64,000 nucleotides of DNA from Desulfobulbus oligotrophicus (GTDB lineage: Bacteria > Desulfobacterota > Desulfobulbia > Desulfobulbales > Desulfobulbaceae), in the NCBI RefSeq assembly GCF_016446285.1, contig NZ_CP054140.1:2966001-3030000 (forward strand), in the 5' to 3' direction. The notes under the pieces are model-generated. The model had not been told where the DNA came from. It saw nothing but the letters and a program-made list of their open reading frames with translations, and did no database searches. Of the stretch, positions 1-51,843 are shown one piece after another; the first letter of the stretch is position 1, and every line of letters begins with the position of its first letter. Position numbers and translations under genes: made by a program.

Positions 1-542
1 AGGTAGTCTACGATTCTGCCATTGTTGCCGAGCCAGCGCTTTTGCACGGGGTTATACACATAGGCAGGAGGTAGAGCAGACAGCGCTGCATTGATCGATG
101 TCACATCAACAGTATCCCGCGTCACCACAATAAGATCAACAAGGTCAAGCAGTTCTTCAACCCGGTACCAGTGCCCAAGCTCCAGTAAAGAATCGGCACC
201 AACAACAAGGGCGAACTGTTCCGCCTCCATTTCCTGCATCAGCGCCTGTACCGTATTGATGGTGTAGGAAGGTTTCGGCAGCTGCTGTTCAATGAGCGAG
301 CACAGCACCTGATCTTTGATATCCGGGCATTCGCCAAGGGCAGCGTTGAGCATTGCCACCCGATCGGTAAAGCCGGCTACAGGTTGCCGTTTGTGGGGAG
401 GCAGCTTTGCCGGAATAAACAGCAACCGGTCCAGCCGACAGCGGGTAAGAACGTGCCGGACCAGATCGAGATGTCCCTGATGGACAGGATCAAAGGTGCC
501 GCCGAATAGGCCGATCACCGGTTTTTTCGTCCAACCGGCCAT
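1..542 (-). CDS. nadD: Nicotinate-nucleotide adenylyltransferase, 3' end missing (cut by window edge)
   Basis: Adenylates nicotinate mononucleotide in NAD synthesis. The visible 180 residues begin MAGWTKKPVIGLFGGTFDPV and contain the nucleotidyltransferase signature GGTFDPVHQGH (HxGH-type) near residue 13. Further on come PPHK and SYTINTVQAL, both typical of NadD. The frame is still open at base 1, so about 30-40 C-terminal residues lie outside the window. It starts two bases after the proA stop codon and is the last gene of the rplU-rpmA-obgE-proB-proA-nadD block, an order common in related bacteria. Confidence 0.93.
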   Translation of the reverse strand, partial: MAGWTKKPVIGLFGGTFDPVHQGHLDLVRHVLTRCRLDRLLFIPAKLPPHKRQPVAGFTDRVAMLNAALGECPDIKDQVLCSLIEQQLPKPSYTINTVQALMQEMEAEQFALVVGADSLLELGHWYRVEELLDLVDLIVVTRDTVDVTSINAALSALPPAYVYNPVQKRWLGNNGRIVDY

Positions 543-544
543 GC

Positions 545-1816
545 CTAGGTACGGATCTCACCACTACCGTAGACAATGAACTTCTGGGTCGTCAACTCCT
601 TTAACCCCATGGGGCCGTAGGCATGCAGCTTGGTGGTCGAGATCCCTATTTCTGCTCCCAGACCAAACTGACCGCCGTCATTAAACCGCGTCGACGCATT
701 CACCATGACCGCCGACGCATCGACTTCCTGCAGAAATCTCTGGCCATGCGCATAGGAACGGGTAAGGATCGTTTCCGTATGTCTGGAGCCATAACGGGCA
801 ATATAATCCATGGCCTCATCCAGACCATGCACCACTTTGACCACCATGGCCAGATCAAGGAACTCTGTTCCCCAATCGGTCTCTGCTGCCGGTTGAATCA
901 TCTCCTCACAGATCAAGCAACTGGACCGGCAACCTAAAAGTCGTACATTTTCCTTTTTCAATGCCTGACTCACCTTAGGCAGGAATTTTTCGGCAATCTC
1001 GCGGTGCACCAGTAATCCTTCAAGGGCATTACACACGCCCGGCCGTTGCACCTTGGCGTTGAGGATGATCGAGACAGCCATGTCCTGATCAGCATCCGCA
1101 TCAACAAAACAGTGGCAGACCCCCTTGTAATGTTTGAGCACGGGGATACGGGATTTTTCGGTTACTGCCCGGATCAACCCCTCACCACCCCGTGGAATCA
1201 CCAGGTCAATAGACTCTTCCTGTTGCAGCAGGATATCGACGGCTTCCCGGTCGGTGAACGGCAACACCTGAACAACTGTCGGGGTAACCGAATGTCTGAT
1301 CAGAACTTCCTGTAATACTTTAGCCAGGGCCAGGTTGGAATAAATTGCCTCAGAACCGCCGCGCAGAATGACGGCATTACCGGCTTTCAGACACAGGGCG
1401 GCCGAGTCAATGGTAACGTTTGGTCGAGATTCATAAATCATCAGGATAACACCCAACGGCACCCGCATCCGCCCGACAGTAATGCCGCTGGGACGCCGTC
1501 GCATCTCCGAGATCTCACCCACCGGATCTTCCAGGGCAGCCACCTCGCGCAAGCCCTGCACCATATCACCAATACCCTTTTCTGTGATCTGCAGGCGATC
1601 AAGCATGGCTGTGGACAGTCCCTTTTTTTTACCGGCCTCCATGTCCTTAGAATTTTCAGCAAGAATGAATGCCTGCTGCCTGAGCAAAGCCTCAGCAATA
1701 TCGCCTAAAATGCTATTCTTCTGCATAGTCGGCATGGCAGCAATGATTCTGGATGCAGATCTGGCTTCCTGCACCATCTCCAATACCGATTTTGCAATCT
1801 GCGCACCTTCCATCAT
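545..1816 (-). CDS. proA: Gamma-glutamyl phosphate reductase
   Basis: Second enzyme of proline synthesis: NADPH-dependent reduction of gamma-glutamyl phosphate to glutamate semialdehyde. It belongs to the aldehyde dehydrogenase fold; the catalytic cysteine is in RPGVCNALEGLLVH and the C-terminal FGLGAEIGIST motif is present. The open frame extends 17 codons further upstream. The start is placed at the double ATG (1816 or 1813) because AGGAG lies directly ahead and this gives the usual length of about 420 residues. It follows proB after a gap of about 160 bases and leads straight into nadD. Confidence 0.95.
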   Translation of the reverse strand: MMEGAQIAKSVLEMVQEARSASRIIAAMPTMQKNSILGDIAEALLRQQAFILAENSKDMEAGKKKGLSTAMLDRLQITEKGIGDMVQGLREVAALEDPVGEISEMRRRPSGITVGRMRVPLGVILMIYESRPNVTIDSAALCLKAGNAVILRGGSEAIYSNLALAKVLQEVLIRHSVTPTVVQVLPFTDREAVDILLQQEESIDLVIPRGGEGLIRAVTEKSRIPVLKHYKGVCHCFVDADADQDMAVSIILNAKVQRPGVCNALEGLLVHREIAEKFLPKVSQALKKENVRLLGCRSSCLICEEMIQPAAETDWGTEFLDLAMVVKVVHGLDEAMDYIARYGSRHTETILTRSYAHGQRFLQEVDASAVMVNASTRFNDGGQFGLGAEIGISTTKLHAYGPMGLKELTTQKFIVYGSGEIRT

Positions 1817-46567: not shown

Positions 46568-48493
46568 ATGCGCGAAGTCATCCTCGGAACAGCCGGCCAT
46601 GTCGACCACGGTAAAACCAGTCTCATCCGTGCCCTGACCGGTATTGACACCGACCGGCTCAGAGAAGAAAAAGTACGCGGCATCACCATTGAGTTAGGGT
46701 TTGCTCATCTCGACCTTCCCTGCGGTCACCGGGTTGGCATTGTTGACGTCCCGGGCCACGAAAAGTTCATTCGCAACATGGTGGCCGGTGCAGCTGGAAT
46801 GGATCTCGTTATGTTTGTCATTGCTGCAGATGAAGGAATTATGCCGCAAACAGTTGAACATTTCGAAATCTGCCGCCTGCTCGGTGTCCGGGACGGACTT
46901 ATTGTCCTGACCAAAAAAGACACCGTTGACCAGGAATGGCTCGACATGGTTACAGAGGAGGTTCATGATTTTTTTGCCGGCAGCTTTCTCGCCGAAGCCC
47001 CAATCGTACCGGTCGATTCAATCAGTCGCAGCGGAATAGATGATCTCCTTCGCCTGTTGGACGACAAGGTCTCCACCATCCATTTCCACGAGGTATTCGG
47101 ACCTTTTCGCATGCCTGTTGATCGGGTTTTCTCGATGAAGGGGTTTGGCACCGTGATTACCGGCACCTCGATCTCCGGCAGAATCGAGACAGGAGATGAT
47201 CTGGCATTTTATCCCGGTGGTCTTACGGCCAAAGTACGCGGTATCCAGGTGCATGGACAGGACATCGACATGGTTGAGGCCGGCCACCGGACCGCCATCA
47301 ATCTCCAGGGTATCGAGAAAGAGCAGATTGAACGAGGCAGCATGGCGGCCACTCCCGGCAGCATGATCAGCTCCACTCTCCTGGACGCCGGATTTCATTA
47401 TCTGGCATCAGCCGGTAAAGAACTGAAACATCGTTCTCTGGTGCGGGTTCACCTCGGCACCCGGGAGATCATCGGTCGTGTTCTGCTTGCAGAGACAGAG
47501 GCTGTTTCCCCCGGAGAAGACACCAGAGTCCAGTTGATCCTGCAGGAGCCCGTTGCTGTCTGGCCGGGTGACCACTATGTTGTCCGCAGCTATTCGCCGG
47601 TCACCACCATTGGTGGCGGCTTCATTCTGGACAACAGTCCACGAAAGCGTAAACGGGCATCAGAAAACGACAGACTGGACAATCAGGATTATTTTACCGC
47701 CCTCACCGCTGCTGATGATGAACGTCGACTCCTCATGCTGGTTGAAGCATGCGGTCCCAGAGGGATCACTGCCGACCAGTTGGCTGCGCGTACCGGTGTG
47801 TTCAGCAAAAAGCTCAAAAAACAACTGCAACTTCCTCTTTCCACCGGGGTCATTGTGGTTGTTGACTCGGAAAGCCAGCGCTTCCTGGCAGCCTCTGTGG
47901 CTGAAACACTCAGCCAGCGAATTGTTGCCCTGCTCACACGATTTCACCAGCAGAACCCCCTGGACACCGGTCTAGCCAAAGAAGCGTTACGCTCACAACT
48001 GAAGCCGCCCATTGACACCAAGGTACTGAACAGTCTGCTGGCCGGTCTTGTTAAAAAAGAAGTGATTGAGCAAAGCGGGGCAGAAATCAGGATAAGCGGC
48101 CACACAGTGACCTTACAGGTTGATGAACAAACCATGGAAGAGGAAATCAACGCCATGTACAGGGAGGCCGGTCTTACTCCACCCATTCTTAAGGATGTCT
48201 TCGCAGCCTTTTCTTCAATCCCTGAACGCCAGGTTCGCCAGGTTATTGACCTGCTTGTTAAAAAAGCAGCGCTTATCCGCATTAACGAGACCTTGTTTTT
48301 CCACGCCCCGGCTGTTGCCGAACTGCAAGAAAAGGTAACCGCTTTCATTCGCCGCGAAGGAGATATCGATGCTCAACGCTTCAAGGAGCTGACCGGTCTG
48401 ACGCGCAAGTTTTCCATCCCTCTTTTAGAGCACTTTGACAAGATCAAGCTGACCATCCGGATTGATGATAAAAGGGTTCTGCGCAAGAGTTAA
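46568..48493 (+). CDS. selB: Selenocysteine-specific elongation factor
   Basis: 641 residues. N-terminal EF-Tu-like GTPase: G1 [19 protein letters not shown], effector [10 protein letters not shown]-like [17 protein letters not shown]3 [13 protein letters not shown]4 LTKKD. Domains II-IV follow, then C-terminal winged-helix repeats (about residues 375-641) that bind the SECIS hairpin of selenoprotein mRNAs. Its presence proves that UGA can be read as selenocysteine here. selA, selD and the Sec tRNA are not in the window. It converges on the next gene with a 4-base overlap. Confidence 0.96.
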
Positions 48494-49176
48494 CCGGCTC
48501 TCTGGAACCGACCGGTTTTCAAAAAACATCCCACCTGCTCGTGCACCGGCCTGTGCACCATGATCATGCTGTGACCATAGGGTAACACGAGAAAATCAGA
48601 CATTCCCGCCAACTTTGCCCGGGAGACAGTCACCTTGCCGTCATTGGGTTCAGAAAAAAAGTGGCCGAACCCCTGCAGTGGACGATCACCGGTAATAATT
48701 CCAAGGGCAAACCGGGCCGGGCCAAGCCGGTTGGGTAAGGAACATGGATCAGTCCCCAGCTGGCAACCGGCTGGTCCAAAAAACCAACGAAACCAGAAAA
48801 AAGAACGCCACAGATCCACCAGCTCACTTCCCTGGTTTGGAGGACTGAGCATAACCACCCGTCCCAGTTCGGGCAATATTCCGTCTGCTGCCAGGAAAGA
48901 TCGCAACACAATACCGCCCATGGAATGGGTGACAAAGTGCACAGTGCCGACATCCTGCCGGCGGAAGGTTGCCAGTGCCGGGGGGAGAACATCCTGAGCA
49001 AGGCGCTCGACGGGAAAGTGGCGGGAAGGATAACCGACGTTCAGGACGGCGTAGTTCTGCCGGCTCAGATACGAAGCAAGTGATCGCATAGACAGCCGGG
49101 TGCGTGCCAGCCCGTGAAGCAGTATCACCCCCTGCTGCCTGTCACTCACCTCCGGCCTCCTCTCATAACCGATCAC
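48490..49176 (-). CDS. Alpha/beta-hydrolase (esterase/lipase-like)
   Basis: 228 residues: oxyanion region VILLHGLARTRLSM, nucleophile elbow in THSMGGIVLRSFLA, and late acid/His positions (SDFLVLPYGHSMIM). No signal peptide, so cytoplasmic. Substrate unknown. AGGTGA lies seven bases before the ATG. It follows the DsrE-like gene after 79 bases on the same strand and may be its operon partner. Confidence 0.85.
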   Translation of the reverse strand: MIGYERRPEVSDRQQGVILLHGLARTRLSMRSLASYLSRQNYAVLNVGYPSRHFPVERLAQDVLPPALATFRRQDVGTVHFVTHSMGGIVLRSFLAADGILPELGRVVMLSPPNQGSELVDLWRSFFWFRWFFGPAGCQLGTDPCSLPNRLGPARFALGIITGDRPLQGFGHFFSEPNDGKVTVSRAKLAGMSDFLVLPYGHSMIMVHRPVHEQVGCFLKTGRFQRAG

Positions 49177-49255: not shown

Positions 49256-49573
49256 TTAAAATGTCACCAACCGATCGCTTTCAACAATCAGCGAGTAGAG
49301 GTCACTCTGTTTTGCCCGCTGATGCTGCCCTGCCTCCACACCGTGGAGGTCCAGCAGCTTGCCTCATGCTAAAAGCACCCCTTCAGAAAGGGTGAAAACT
49401 CTGGCCAACTCCATCAAAGGAAACGTTTCAGAAGACAGTTGTTCATACTGAACCGACGGCCCATTGAGAAACATGGTCACATCGTCCATCTGCTCCAGCA
49501 TCAGATTACCCATCCGAAAAGCGTTCCACACCACCTCCGGATCGCCGCTGCACACCATTAAAGTCATCTTCAT
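49256..49573 (-). CDS. DsrE-like sulfur-relay protein, probable selenoprotein (Sec at UGA 49366-49364)
   Basis: Conventional translation stops after 69 residues at TGA (49366-49364). Reading through gives 105 residues ending at TAA. The first part, MKMTLMVCSGDPEVVWNAFR to ARVFTLSEG, has the DsrE/DsrF/TusD fold pattern. The TGA falls in GVLLA-U-GKLLDLHG, where relatives have A-C-G-x-C-L-x-x-R-G, so Sec replaces the sulfur-carrying cysteine. The continuation ends SDLYSLIVESDRLVTF, the usual DsrE C-terminus. A hairpin follows the TGA, and selB ends about 760 bases away. It lies 18 bases after the tandem DsrC gene. The ribosome site is weak. A pseudogene is less likely, because the frame is otherwise perfect. 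Confidence 0.82.
49324..49358 (-). promoter_or_regulatory. SECIS-like hairpin downstream of the in-frame UGA
   Basis: In the mRNA, five bases after the UGA, outer arms GCUGC/GCAGC enclose an internal loop and a perfect 7-bp stem CCUCCAC/GUGGAGG with the apical loop GGU (49342-49340). The loop begins 21 bases after the UGA, within the window known for bacterial SECIS elements, and carries the guanines usual in the SelB-contacting loop. It lies inside the coding sequence, as in bacterial selenoprotein genes. Confidence 0.7.
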
Positions 49574-49591: not shown

Positions 49592-50254
49592 TTATTTGAT
49601 AAATCGAAGACCGGCAACTTTCAGGGCACCACGGTGATACCCGTCCGGAAAAAGCTGTTCAAACCTGTCCAAGTCGATATCGCAGCTTTCACAGGTTTCA
49701 TAGATAGTGGGGATTCGATGTTCGACCTGAAAAACATCACGCAGATAGTAGAGGATCCGCCAGTGCTCATCGGTGAGCTTCCCTTCCGGAATACGCATTT
49801 CCATGGCACGGTGAACGGCGAAGTTCTCGTCCCATGTGTCCGGATCGACAAGGAACCCCCGGACATCAGTGGTGTACACCTTGTCTCCTGACAAAGCCCG
49901 TAGATCGGCCACACTCTCACGGAGATGCACACTGTACGGCACAGTGCTTAAACGGTAATGCACACCGGCAATCCGGCACAGACCTCGATGATACCCGGCC
50001 GGAAAAAGCTTCTGCATCTCCTGGGGACGCAGTCCGTTAGCTTTACAGGCGGCAAAAATAGTGGGACAGACACCGGTTTGTTCATGGGTTTGCCGAATAT
50101 AATCGATCACGTCCCAATGTTCACCCGACAGTACCGGAATGTCGCACTCCCGTGCCATGCCTTCAGCAAAATCCCTGGTCCACTGTTTTGGATCAAGCAG
50201 GCAACCCTGTTCATCCAATTCGTATGTTACGTCTTTGTAGTGAAAGGGTTTCAT
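49592..50254 (-). CDS. Tandem DsrC/TusE-family fusion protein
   Basis: 220 residues made of two DsrC-like domains. Shared landmarks recur 118 residues apart: EHW at 45 and 163, LFPAGYHRG at 83 and LFPDGYHRG at 201, AG at 96-97 and 214-215. DsrC carries sulfur on cysteines of its C-terminal arm (C-x-IAGLPKPxGC). Here domain 1 keeps only the upstream one (Cys93 in GLCRIAG), and domain 2 ends ALKVAGLRFIK with none. Other cysteines (18, 37, 63, 70, 188, 191) are atypical. AAGGAG five bases upstream fixes the start. It precedes the DsrE-like selenoprotein by 18 bases, suggesting a sulfur-transfer pair. Confidence 0.8.
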   Translation of the reverse strand: MKPFHYKDVTYELDEQGCLLDPKQWTRDFAEGMARECDIPVLSGEHWDVIDYIRQTHEQTGVCPTIFAACKANGLRPQEMQKLFPAGYHRGLCRIAGVHYRLSTVPYSVHLRESVADLRALSGDKVYTTDVRGFLVDPDTWDENFAVHRAMEMRIPEGKLTDEHWRILYYLRDVFQVEHRIPTIYETCESCDIDLDRFEQLFPDGYHRGALKVAGLRFIK

Positions 50255-50539
50255 ATGTTCTCCTTTTGCGCCTCGAGTTTCATGCCGCACCACGGCTTCT
50301 CAGCAACATCTCAGTAAGAGCATGGTTACACCGTTAAAATTCTGTGAAAAAAACTGTCTCATCAACCCGTCAGAAAACGTCTTTTCCATTACAAACTGTA
50401 CAAATGTGCACTTTTGCATGCAATAAATACCGGGATCCAACAGCATTGTCCTTTCAACAACACGTTGAAGGCCCCTATTTTATCCGCAACTTTTCTTAAA
50501 AAGCTATAGCACCGGGTCATTTTCTCTGCAAGAATTCTT

Positions 50540-51376
50540 TCATGATTCCGGACAAAGCGACAGGGCCTGCGCCACCAGCAGTATGTGTTCTTTTTCTCCT
50601 TCAGCAAGGGCCTGAAACACGGCCTCCAGAGGTTGGCCTCGCCAGTGATGCGCCATATTGCGAGACAGATCATACGCCACATACTCAAGGGACAGTGCCA
50701 TCTCCAGGGTATCGCGGCACAGCGTCCTCTCATCATCCGCCAGCCTATCCAGGAGATCGGGAATCGTCATTCCGCCTTCAACGATATCTTTTCTTAAATC
50801 CGCATAGACGGCAGAAAAGGACGGTGGAGCAGTCTGTTGCTCCGCCCAGGCACGATAGATCGTCATGGCATGCGCCTTCTCAGCAGCCGCAAGTTCGGAC
50901 AGGGTCTTTGCCCAGGGACTATCGCCATAACGCTGAGACAAAACAAGGTAATACTCTGCCGCCCCACGCTCCAGCTCCATGGCCCGATACAGGATATCGT
51001 GCTCCGTGCCGCTGAGATCAAACACCCGCAACTGCGGGCCGGTTGCCAGCAGCTCACCATTCCACGCAAGGATGCCACCGGCCATATTAAAAACAGTGCC
51101 GGCAATATGCGGTTGAGAAGCAACAAAGATAGCCGCACCTCTGGATCGGTTGCCGGAACGACAATAAAAAATAATGTCTTTATCTGTTTCCAGCTCAGCC
51201 ATTCTCTCGGGAATCTCTCCCAGAGGAATAAGTATGGCTCCGGGAATATGCGCCTGGTTGTATTCACTGGGTTGACGGACATCGATCAGCATATAATCCT
51301 GTTCATCATGCTGCTGCAAATACCCCCGCACCTTCTCCACACTGATATCCTGAAACTCAGGCTCCAATTTTTGCAT
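50540..51376 (-). CDS. Rhodanese-rubrerythrin fusion
   Basis: 278 residues. Residues 8-115 are a rhodanese domain (MLIDVRQPSEYNQAHIPGA, catalytic Cys72 in YCRSGNRSRG). Residues 130-278 are a four-helix ferritin-like domain with diiron-type ligands (MELERGAAEYY, AAAEKAHAMTIY, EMALSLEYVAYDL, EGEKEHILLV). It joins persulfide transfer with an oxygen- or peroxide-handling fold. AGGAG seven bases upstream supports this start; 14 more codons are open upstream. It is upstream of, and co-directional with, the DsrC and DsrE-like genes, separated by 285 bases. Confidence 0.87.
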   Translation of the reverse strand: MQKLEPEFQDISVEKVRGYLQQHDEQDYMLIDVRQPSEYNQAHIPGAILIPLGEIPERMAELETDKDIIFYCRSGNRSRGAAIFVASQPHIAGTVFNMAGGILAWNGELLATGPQLRVFDLSGTEHDILYRAMELERGAAEYYLVLSQRYGDSPWAKTLSELAAAEKAHAMTIYRAWAEQQTAPPSFSAVYADLRKDIVEGGMTIPDLLDRLADDERTLCRDTLEMALSLEYVAYDLSRNMAHHWRGQPLEAVFQALAEGEKEHILLVAQALSLCPES

Positions 51377-51843
51377 TGACGTACTCCTGTTACCGAACTC
51401 TTTCGGCTGACTGATCATGATATAAAAATATCAAAGGTACTGTCCAGACAGATGATATCCTCCATGAATATACCCGACATTAAAACATGAGACCGGCAAA
51501 ATTATCCAGCAAGTTTCAGAATCGGGCTGTACAGATCTGCCAGTGCACCGACCATACCACACCAAACAGTCATCACTGCAACTCCTGTCCGGCCTCTATC
51601 TTGCATAGTTGGAAACAGTTTACCGCTGGTGAGTCGATAGTTAGTCCATCTGTACAACCGCACGTCTTTCGACAGGCAGCACGTGTACTCTCACCTTGAC
51701 GATTCGAACAGACGGACTGTCTTTCCCCTCAACGATTCAGCCATCGATCGTCGCGGCAAGTTCTTTACAACCGCGGCCGACAATGGTTATGCATAGTCTG
51801 CATGGATCAGCTGTCATGCAACACAATCTCCAGAGCACTTTTT
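51377..51843. other. Divergent intergenic region
   Basis: 467 bases between the rhodanese fusion and the Zra-like operon. Short frames here look random. One TTTCGACA (51667-51674) matches the half-site seen upstream of the convergent Zra-type target gene. No clear promoter was assigned. Confidence 0.4.

Follow-up and report, generated by a model that had tools for sequence, protein, structure and literature searches.

DsrE-like selenoproteins have been known as a kind since 2005, when Zhang and Gladyshev described two sequences with a UxxC motif from the Sargasso Sea (PMC1088965). One DsrE-like selenoprotein gene was then reported from Desulfovibrio vulgaris in 2006 (PMC1794560), and the GOS analysis of 2008 distinguished DsrE 1 and DsrE 2, both with UxxC (PMC2398784). 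Two reviews likewise give the motif as UxxC (PMC9312934 and PMC13188914); the second treats these proteins as predicted and their functions as largely uncharacterised, and the string UxxL is absent from its main text. The sulfur-transfer proteins to which this family is related are described in PMC3397948: in A. vinosum, sulfur is bound at DsrE-Cys78, and DsrC receives it from DsrEFH.

Here we describe a dsrE-like gene on the minus strand of a 64,000-nucleotide stretch of Desulfobulbus oligotrophicus DNA, the whole of which is referred to as the window. The gene (49256..49573) comprises 105 codons with an in-frame UGA at codon 70 and a TAA stop. The best overall explanation, to which we assign a probability of about 0.88, is that it encodes a 105-residue selenoprotein of the DsrE fold in which UGA 70 is read as selenocysteine (Sec). 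On this reading the gene shares with the published family its DsrE homology, Sec at the position of the reactive cysteine and a bacterial SECIS element, and has a deltaproteobacterial host in common with the D. vulgaris gene of 2006. Its motif, by contrast, is UGKL rather than the published UxxC, and we therefore class the protein as a variant and not as a plain member of the family. As far as our searches reach (the Tso-operon literature was covered in part), the UGKL form, the existence of a Sec-only clade and the neighbouring DsrC-DsrC gene are additions to the literature.

Conservation of the in-frame UGA and of the sequence beyond it

The frame starts with ATG at 49573-49571, ends with TAA at 49258-49256, and is interrupted solely by the UGA at 49364..49366 (minus strand), which occupies the column of the reactive cysteine of DsrE relatives. 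Under the standard bacterial code the protein stops after residue 69, while reading through gives a product of 105 residues with the sequence ...LSEGVLLA-U-GKLLDLHGVEAGQHQRAKQSDLYSLIVESDRLVTF around the Sec and SDRLVTF at its C-terminus. A preliminary description of this DNA, which left the strand unstated, had noted a frame of 69 codons followed by 35 more, and the re-read frame and coordinates bear this out. It had also placed the UGA at the first cysteine of an A-C-G-x-C motif; the first-cysteine column does hold among relatives, but the window reads A-U-G-K-L and the second cysteine is missing.

Homologues were collected in several steps. A search of 55 genomes, made up of the window's own and those of relatives, gave matches in 21, including, besides the window gene, 16 relatives' genes at 55-84% identity with exactly one internal TGA each. 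A 21-row profile then matched 64 of the 257 genomes of the order and 73 of 395 in the phylum. Matches above 150 bits numbered 41 in the order and 13 in the phylum (4 of them outside the order), every one with one TGA; searching at class level brought back an identical set of 257 genomes and yielded nothing extra. From these we assembled a clade set of 45 distinct close homologues: all but one of the 41 order matches (40 genes), the phylum matches from outside the order (4) and one gene from the named genome collection (L040). The order match left out (G139) lacks its start at a contig end; the G354 gene described below is not part of the set either.

All 45 genes have UGA at codon 70, while their true stops are mixed (TAA 20, TGA 17, TAG 8). 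The 35 codons past the UGA are open and keep their codon periodicity in 45/45 homologues, with mean pairwise differences over the 45 rows at codon positions 1/2/3 of 0.247/0.155/0.576 before the UGA and 0.226/0.182/0.550 after it. Judged from these sequences, selection at the protein level looks alike on either side of the UGA, which would be unexpected past a real stop. Columns after the UGA that are invariant in 21 rows include K72, D75, L76, H77, G78, V79, R86, Q89 and Y93; among the 45 rows, single rows deviate at columns 78 and 79.

These data bear directly on the reading in which the UGA is an ordinary stop, so that a 69-residue protein is made and the remainder is a decaying remnant. 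The standard bacterial code does end the frame there, and in one relative, G354 (L105/L066), a genome in one contig, the two halves of the clade gene lie in different frames with the break beside the UGA, which may be either a sequencing error or decay. Set against this, the open, periodic frame in every one of the 45 homologues and the invariant columns beyond the UGA make an ordinary stop very unlikely.

Translation of the UGA as Sec is further consistent with the residue found at this column in more distant proteins. In 103 distinct rows extracted from fetched loci, which represent part of all order and phylum matches, the Sec column holds UGA in 88, Cys in 14 distant rows (ACGTC and similar) and, in the one remaining row, the first half of the G354 gene. 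L064 and L080, both of them UGA rows, contain an additional TAG elsewhere in frame. When Sec was written as C in a mixed alignment of 19 rows, the Sec column and six others were invariant, the five Cys rows having 30-45% identity to the window protein. No Cys version was found within the clade, so that the evidence for Cys opposite UGA at this column comes from homologues with 30-45% identity. Among Desulfobulbales and their kin, the Cys-type DsrE proteins (ACGTC; L026, for example, with 34% full-length identity) differ from the window protein in having two cysteines and no Sec at the same column, and the longest stem found where the SECIS would lie does not exceed 3 bp in the L090 row. The check proposed in the preliminary description, namely that homologues should carry Cys or UGA at this column, thus came out in its favour.

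Within the genus the gene is patchily distributed: it is present in 13 of 23 genomes and gave no match in the other 10, five of which are at least 92% complete, implying that it is dispensable.

A SECIS-like hairpin and the selenocysteine machinery

Directly past the UGA lies a SECIS-like hairpin (49333..49349, minus strand) with a 7-bp stem, CCUCCAC/GUGGAGG, and a GGU loop. It begins 14 nt past the UGA and leaves 21 nt between UGA and loop, in line with the usual limits on UGA-to-SECIS distance. The 50 nt from the UGA have a folding energy of -23.2 kcal/mol (z -2.3), which was equalled by 4 of 200 shuffles. Position just past the UGA and a G in the apical loop are the features of the hairpin of a bacterial selenoprotein gene, both of which the window hairpin has, and a conserved G in the loop of bacterial SECIS elements is stated in a published figure legend.

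The stem (positions 18-24 / 28-34) is perfect in 42/45 clade rows, of which 41 have a GGN loop and one (L085) has GUU, and 99.0% of stem cells are paired across 44 distinct rows. With counts that are inflated by the relatedness of the rows, 10 cells changed on both sides, compared with a shuffled mean of 1.6 (0/500 shuffles as high), and the covariation score was 0.203 versus 0.150 when shuffled (reached by 0/500); two-sided change was seen in 2 pairs, a count not above shuffles, 129/500 of which reach it. The clearest case joining protein and RNA is the pairing of the codons for Leu76 and residue 80: in 7 rows with AAG (Lys80) the Leu76 codon is CTT, in 33 rows with GAG (Glu80) it is CTC, and one exceptional row combines CTT and GAG.

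Homologues outside the clade were compared at the same place. The clade profile gives 48-71 bits for a UGxC group of 24 rows; 15 of these form a different but likewise perfect stem with its loop in the same place (UCCCAC..GUGGGA and UCCCGU..ACGGGA among them), and in the remaining 9 the best stem is shorter or located elsewhere. The best stems of 13/14 Cys rows are only 2-6 bp at the SECIS place; the other Cys row, L065, has an 8-bp stem at a different place, and neither of its first two loop bases is G.

We do not regard the hairpin as stand-alone proof, since 37 of the 2609 TGA triplets in the window, codon 70 included, score at least equally. If the comparison is limited to the 96 window TGAs preceded by 60 or more open codons and followed by 30 or more, one has a hairpin that scores higher and one ties. 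An Rfam scan of the window gave no match. The case for Sec is carried by conservation, not by the hairpin.

The genome, a single contig of 3,102,012 bases, encodes the complete Sec machinery: tRNA-Sec (71.5 bits against a cut-off of 47), SelA (619 bits), SelD (361 bits; its gene also contains one in-frame TGA) and SelB. ARAGORN found no tRNA in the window. The selB gene for the Sec-specific elongation factor (46568..48493, plus strand; 348 bits with TIGR00475, whose cut-off is 242) is within the window, as the preliminary description had observed in support of selenocysteine. Its nearness proves little, and we rejected it as proof: selB lies near the dsrE-like gene in 9/13 same-genus loci, together with their duplicates from the named collection (the L015 locus is cut by a contig end), and near none of the compared loci outside the genus.

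An open frame alone is silent on the residue inserted, and the UGA might be translated as Cys, as Trp, or through unspecific suppression. The presence of tRNA-Sec, SelA, SelB and SelD in this genome, the SelD match that likewise contains an in-frame TGA, and the covarying hairpin directly past the UGA all argue against such readthrough, which we regard as exceedingly unlikely. Recoding of the UGA as Sec is, on the evidence of these sequences, strongly supported. We envisage that SelB and tRNA-Sec would decode UGA 70 as Sec with the aid of the downstream hairpin.

Fold and motif of the protein

AlphaFold2, run on the 21-row alignment, gave a best model with mean pLDDT 82.2 and pTM 0.78, the five models ranging in pLDDT from 82 to 41. 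Compared with solved structures, this model is closest to E. coli YchN (1jx7_A; Z 10.9, 103 residues aligned, 3.1 A), followed by a Sulfolobus DsrE/DsrF-like protein (Z 9.8), TusBCD chain A (2d1p_A; 8.9), a DsrE sulfurtransferase (8.9) and DsrEFH chain C (2hy5_C; 8.8). Interspersed among these DsrE-fold matches are a designed cage protein (Z 9.2) and 2pd2 (Z 9.1). Foldseek ranked 2hy5_A third. In the model, residue 70 closes a strand (66-70) and a helix runs from 71. The predicted structure thus has the DsrE/YchN fold, which it shares over nearly the whole chain with DsrEFH (2hy5), TusBCD (2d1p) and YchN (1jx7). These proteins have Cys where the window protein has Sec, the cysteine of YchN being aligned with the window Sec column, and DsrEFH and TusBCD are heterohexamers.

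At the level of sequence profiles the relationship is more distant. The read-through protein matched nothing in Pfam or NCBIfam at E up to 1, in contrast to the UGVC relatives L029 and L030, which score 34-35 bits with PF02635 (cut-off 22.7). PF02635 matches 14/21 clade members at E up to 0.1 (best 0.00026), and three members scored singly reach 17.9-21.5 bits, under the cut-off; the window protein has full-length homology to PF02635-positive rows. A search of PDB sequences with the clade profile alone gave nothing up to E 1, and the mixed profile found YchN at 1.8e-07. In its own genome PF02635 matches four other places, the dsrE-like gene not being among them, and plasmid records contained merely five distant archaeal DsrE proteins at 31-34% identity. 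The usual profile libraries would thus miss a protein whose gene, under the standard code, is in any case cut short.

Taken together, the conserved UGA with coding sequence on both sides, the covarying hairpin, the Sec machinery, the Cys homologues and the DsrE fold sustain the original proposal of selenocysteine at the sulfur-carrying position.

The window motif is U-G-K-L and lacks the UxxC redox pair. Across the 45 clade genes the motifs are UGKL (30), UGKC (13), USKL (1) and UGKI (1), such that Leu occupies the position three past Sec in 31 genes, Cys in 13 and Ile in 1. On a tree of 92 rows, which includes 42/45 clade rows and the G354 piece, and whose 106 columns are flagged by the software as a small number for so large a set, a branch with 100/99 support separates the clade from the other rows. 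The Leu label requires at least 3 changes on this tree, implying that the residue three past Sec has changed more than once within the clade, with no change seen in the Sec codon. At 105 residues, with one selenol and no partner cysteine at the usual place, the clade would represent the simplest form of such a protein, making the role of selenium in sulfur transfer directly testable.

Genomic surroundings and possible function

Immediately upstream of the dsrE-like gene, in the same direction, is a gene for a tandem DsrC-DsrC fusion (49592..50293, minus strand; Pfam DsrC 1.7e-37, two stretches), a frame of 233 codons with its first ATG at about 50254, the end of which lies 18 nt from the dsrE-like start codon. 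Its arms read GYHRGLCRIAGVHY and GYHRGALKVAGLRFIK; one cysteine is kept in the first arm, and neither has the terminal PTGCV of canonical DsrC, which the same genome encodes elsewhere as GACKMAGLPKPTGCV (L161). Further upstream is a rhodanese-rubrerythrin fusion gene (50540..51418, minus strand; Pfam Rhodanese 1.2e-20, Rubrerythrin 6.6e-09), found also in L031, L033 and L035. On the downstream side lies an alpha/beta-hydrolase-like gene (48490..49176, minus strand; Pfam Abhydrolase_6 1.7e-05, just under the cut-off). The DsrC-DsrC and hydrolase genes thus flank the dsrE-like gene; small frames nearby were scanned in part, and none of the scanned neighbours was identified as dsrF- or dsrH-like.

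In 9/13 same-genus loci no more than about 110 nt separate the end of a DsrC-DsrC gene from the dsrE-like gene; in L011/L032 the DsrC-DsrC gene lies 2.3 kb away. None was seen in L023/L039 (5 kb each side), in L024 or L025 (1.5 kb each side), or near the dsrE-like gene in loci outside the genus, where neighbour clustering found no partner common to most loci. Several relatives (for instance L013, L016 and L017) have two DsrC-DsrC-type genes in succession.

The order match tables contain 23 genomes with both DsrE-like and TsoA-like matches, TsoA being a known selenoprotein of the Tso operon. In 10 of these 23 (G027, G035, G067, G101, G112, G116, G206, G230, G234 and G252) the two genes lie less than 1 kb apart on one strand with TsoA first; G112 and G116 are the only two of the ten in which the DsrE belongs to the window clade. 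A gene for an ArsR-type regulator precedes some of the TsoA-linked loci (Pfam HTH_5 in two tested). No TsoA match was found in the genome from which the window comes.

How the selenoprotein might act is suggested by its fold and neighbours. The selenol would take the place of the sulfur-carrying cysteine of DsrE proteins. Since the residue three further on is Leu, the internal Se-S bond expected in UxxC relatives would not form, and the protein would most likely carry or reduce sulfane sulfur by way of its single selenol, the Se-S or Se-SH product being resolved by the thiol of another protein or by a small thiol. The preliminary description had supposed that a selenium-based carrier might show altered persulfide chemistry. 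That it functions in this way, with the upstream tandem DsrC-like protein as its partner in the Desulfobulbus group, is a tentative proposal to which we give somewhat less than even odds. The DsrC of A. vinosum accepts sulfur on its penultimate Cys111, a cysteine that the window DsrC-DsrC protein lacks; because of this, transfer to the adjacent protein would need another site.

Alternatively, Sec may be correct and the protein may be a thiol-dependent one-Sec reductase or peroxidase, or a binder of selenium, metal or metalloid, and not a sulfur carrier. The homologues that adjoin ArsR-type regulators and the TsoA gene in some other genomes speak for this, as does a loss of the partner cysteine comparable to that in 1-Cys peroxidases. 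Against it stand the fold, which is that of sulfur-carrier proteins, the coincidence of the Sec column with their reactive cysteine, and the DsrC-like and rhodanese genes of the window. We put the chance of such a role at around one in three. Going beyond the one-selenol carrier or reductase proposed above, one may picture a Sec-only, mostly one-selenol DsrE lineage across Desulfobacterota, which in Desulfobulbus hands perselenide sulfur or selenium to the adjacent tandem DsrC-like protein. This broader scheme is rather unlikely; if true, it would mean that the relay from DsrE to DsrC has a selenium-based counterpart in which sulfur is accepted at another site.

Other known and possible selenoprotein genes in the compared loci

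A gene with a conserved UGA found beside dsrE in other genomes was considered as a new gene and rejected, since NCBIfam names it TsoA. Such TsoA genes (motif LULAxC) are present in L059, L062, L065, L121, L122, L123 and some of L127-L156, with NF045695 matching the one tested. All 26 distinct rows with the TsoA motif have UGA, and the DNA past it is very constant. A second TsoA copy in L169 (G107; 301-741, plus strand) has AGA (Arg) as the codon at the Sec place (472-474).

Paired DsrE genes, the first with Cys (CGTC) and the second with Sec (UGVC), occur in L088/L123 (G067) and L098/L124 (G496), and L118 (G380) has two adjacent DsrE-like frames, each containing an in-frame UGA (SULTC in one, AUGAC in the other). 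Finally, a DsrE frame in L125 (3247-3654, plus strand; PF02635 1.1e-08) has the motif U-K-K-A, as does L117, and a hydrophobic N-terminus that by eye resembles a signal peptide, raising the possibility of an exported DsrE protein with one Sec.
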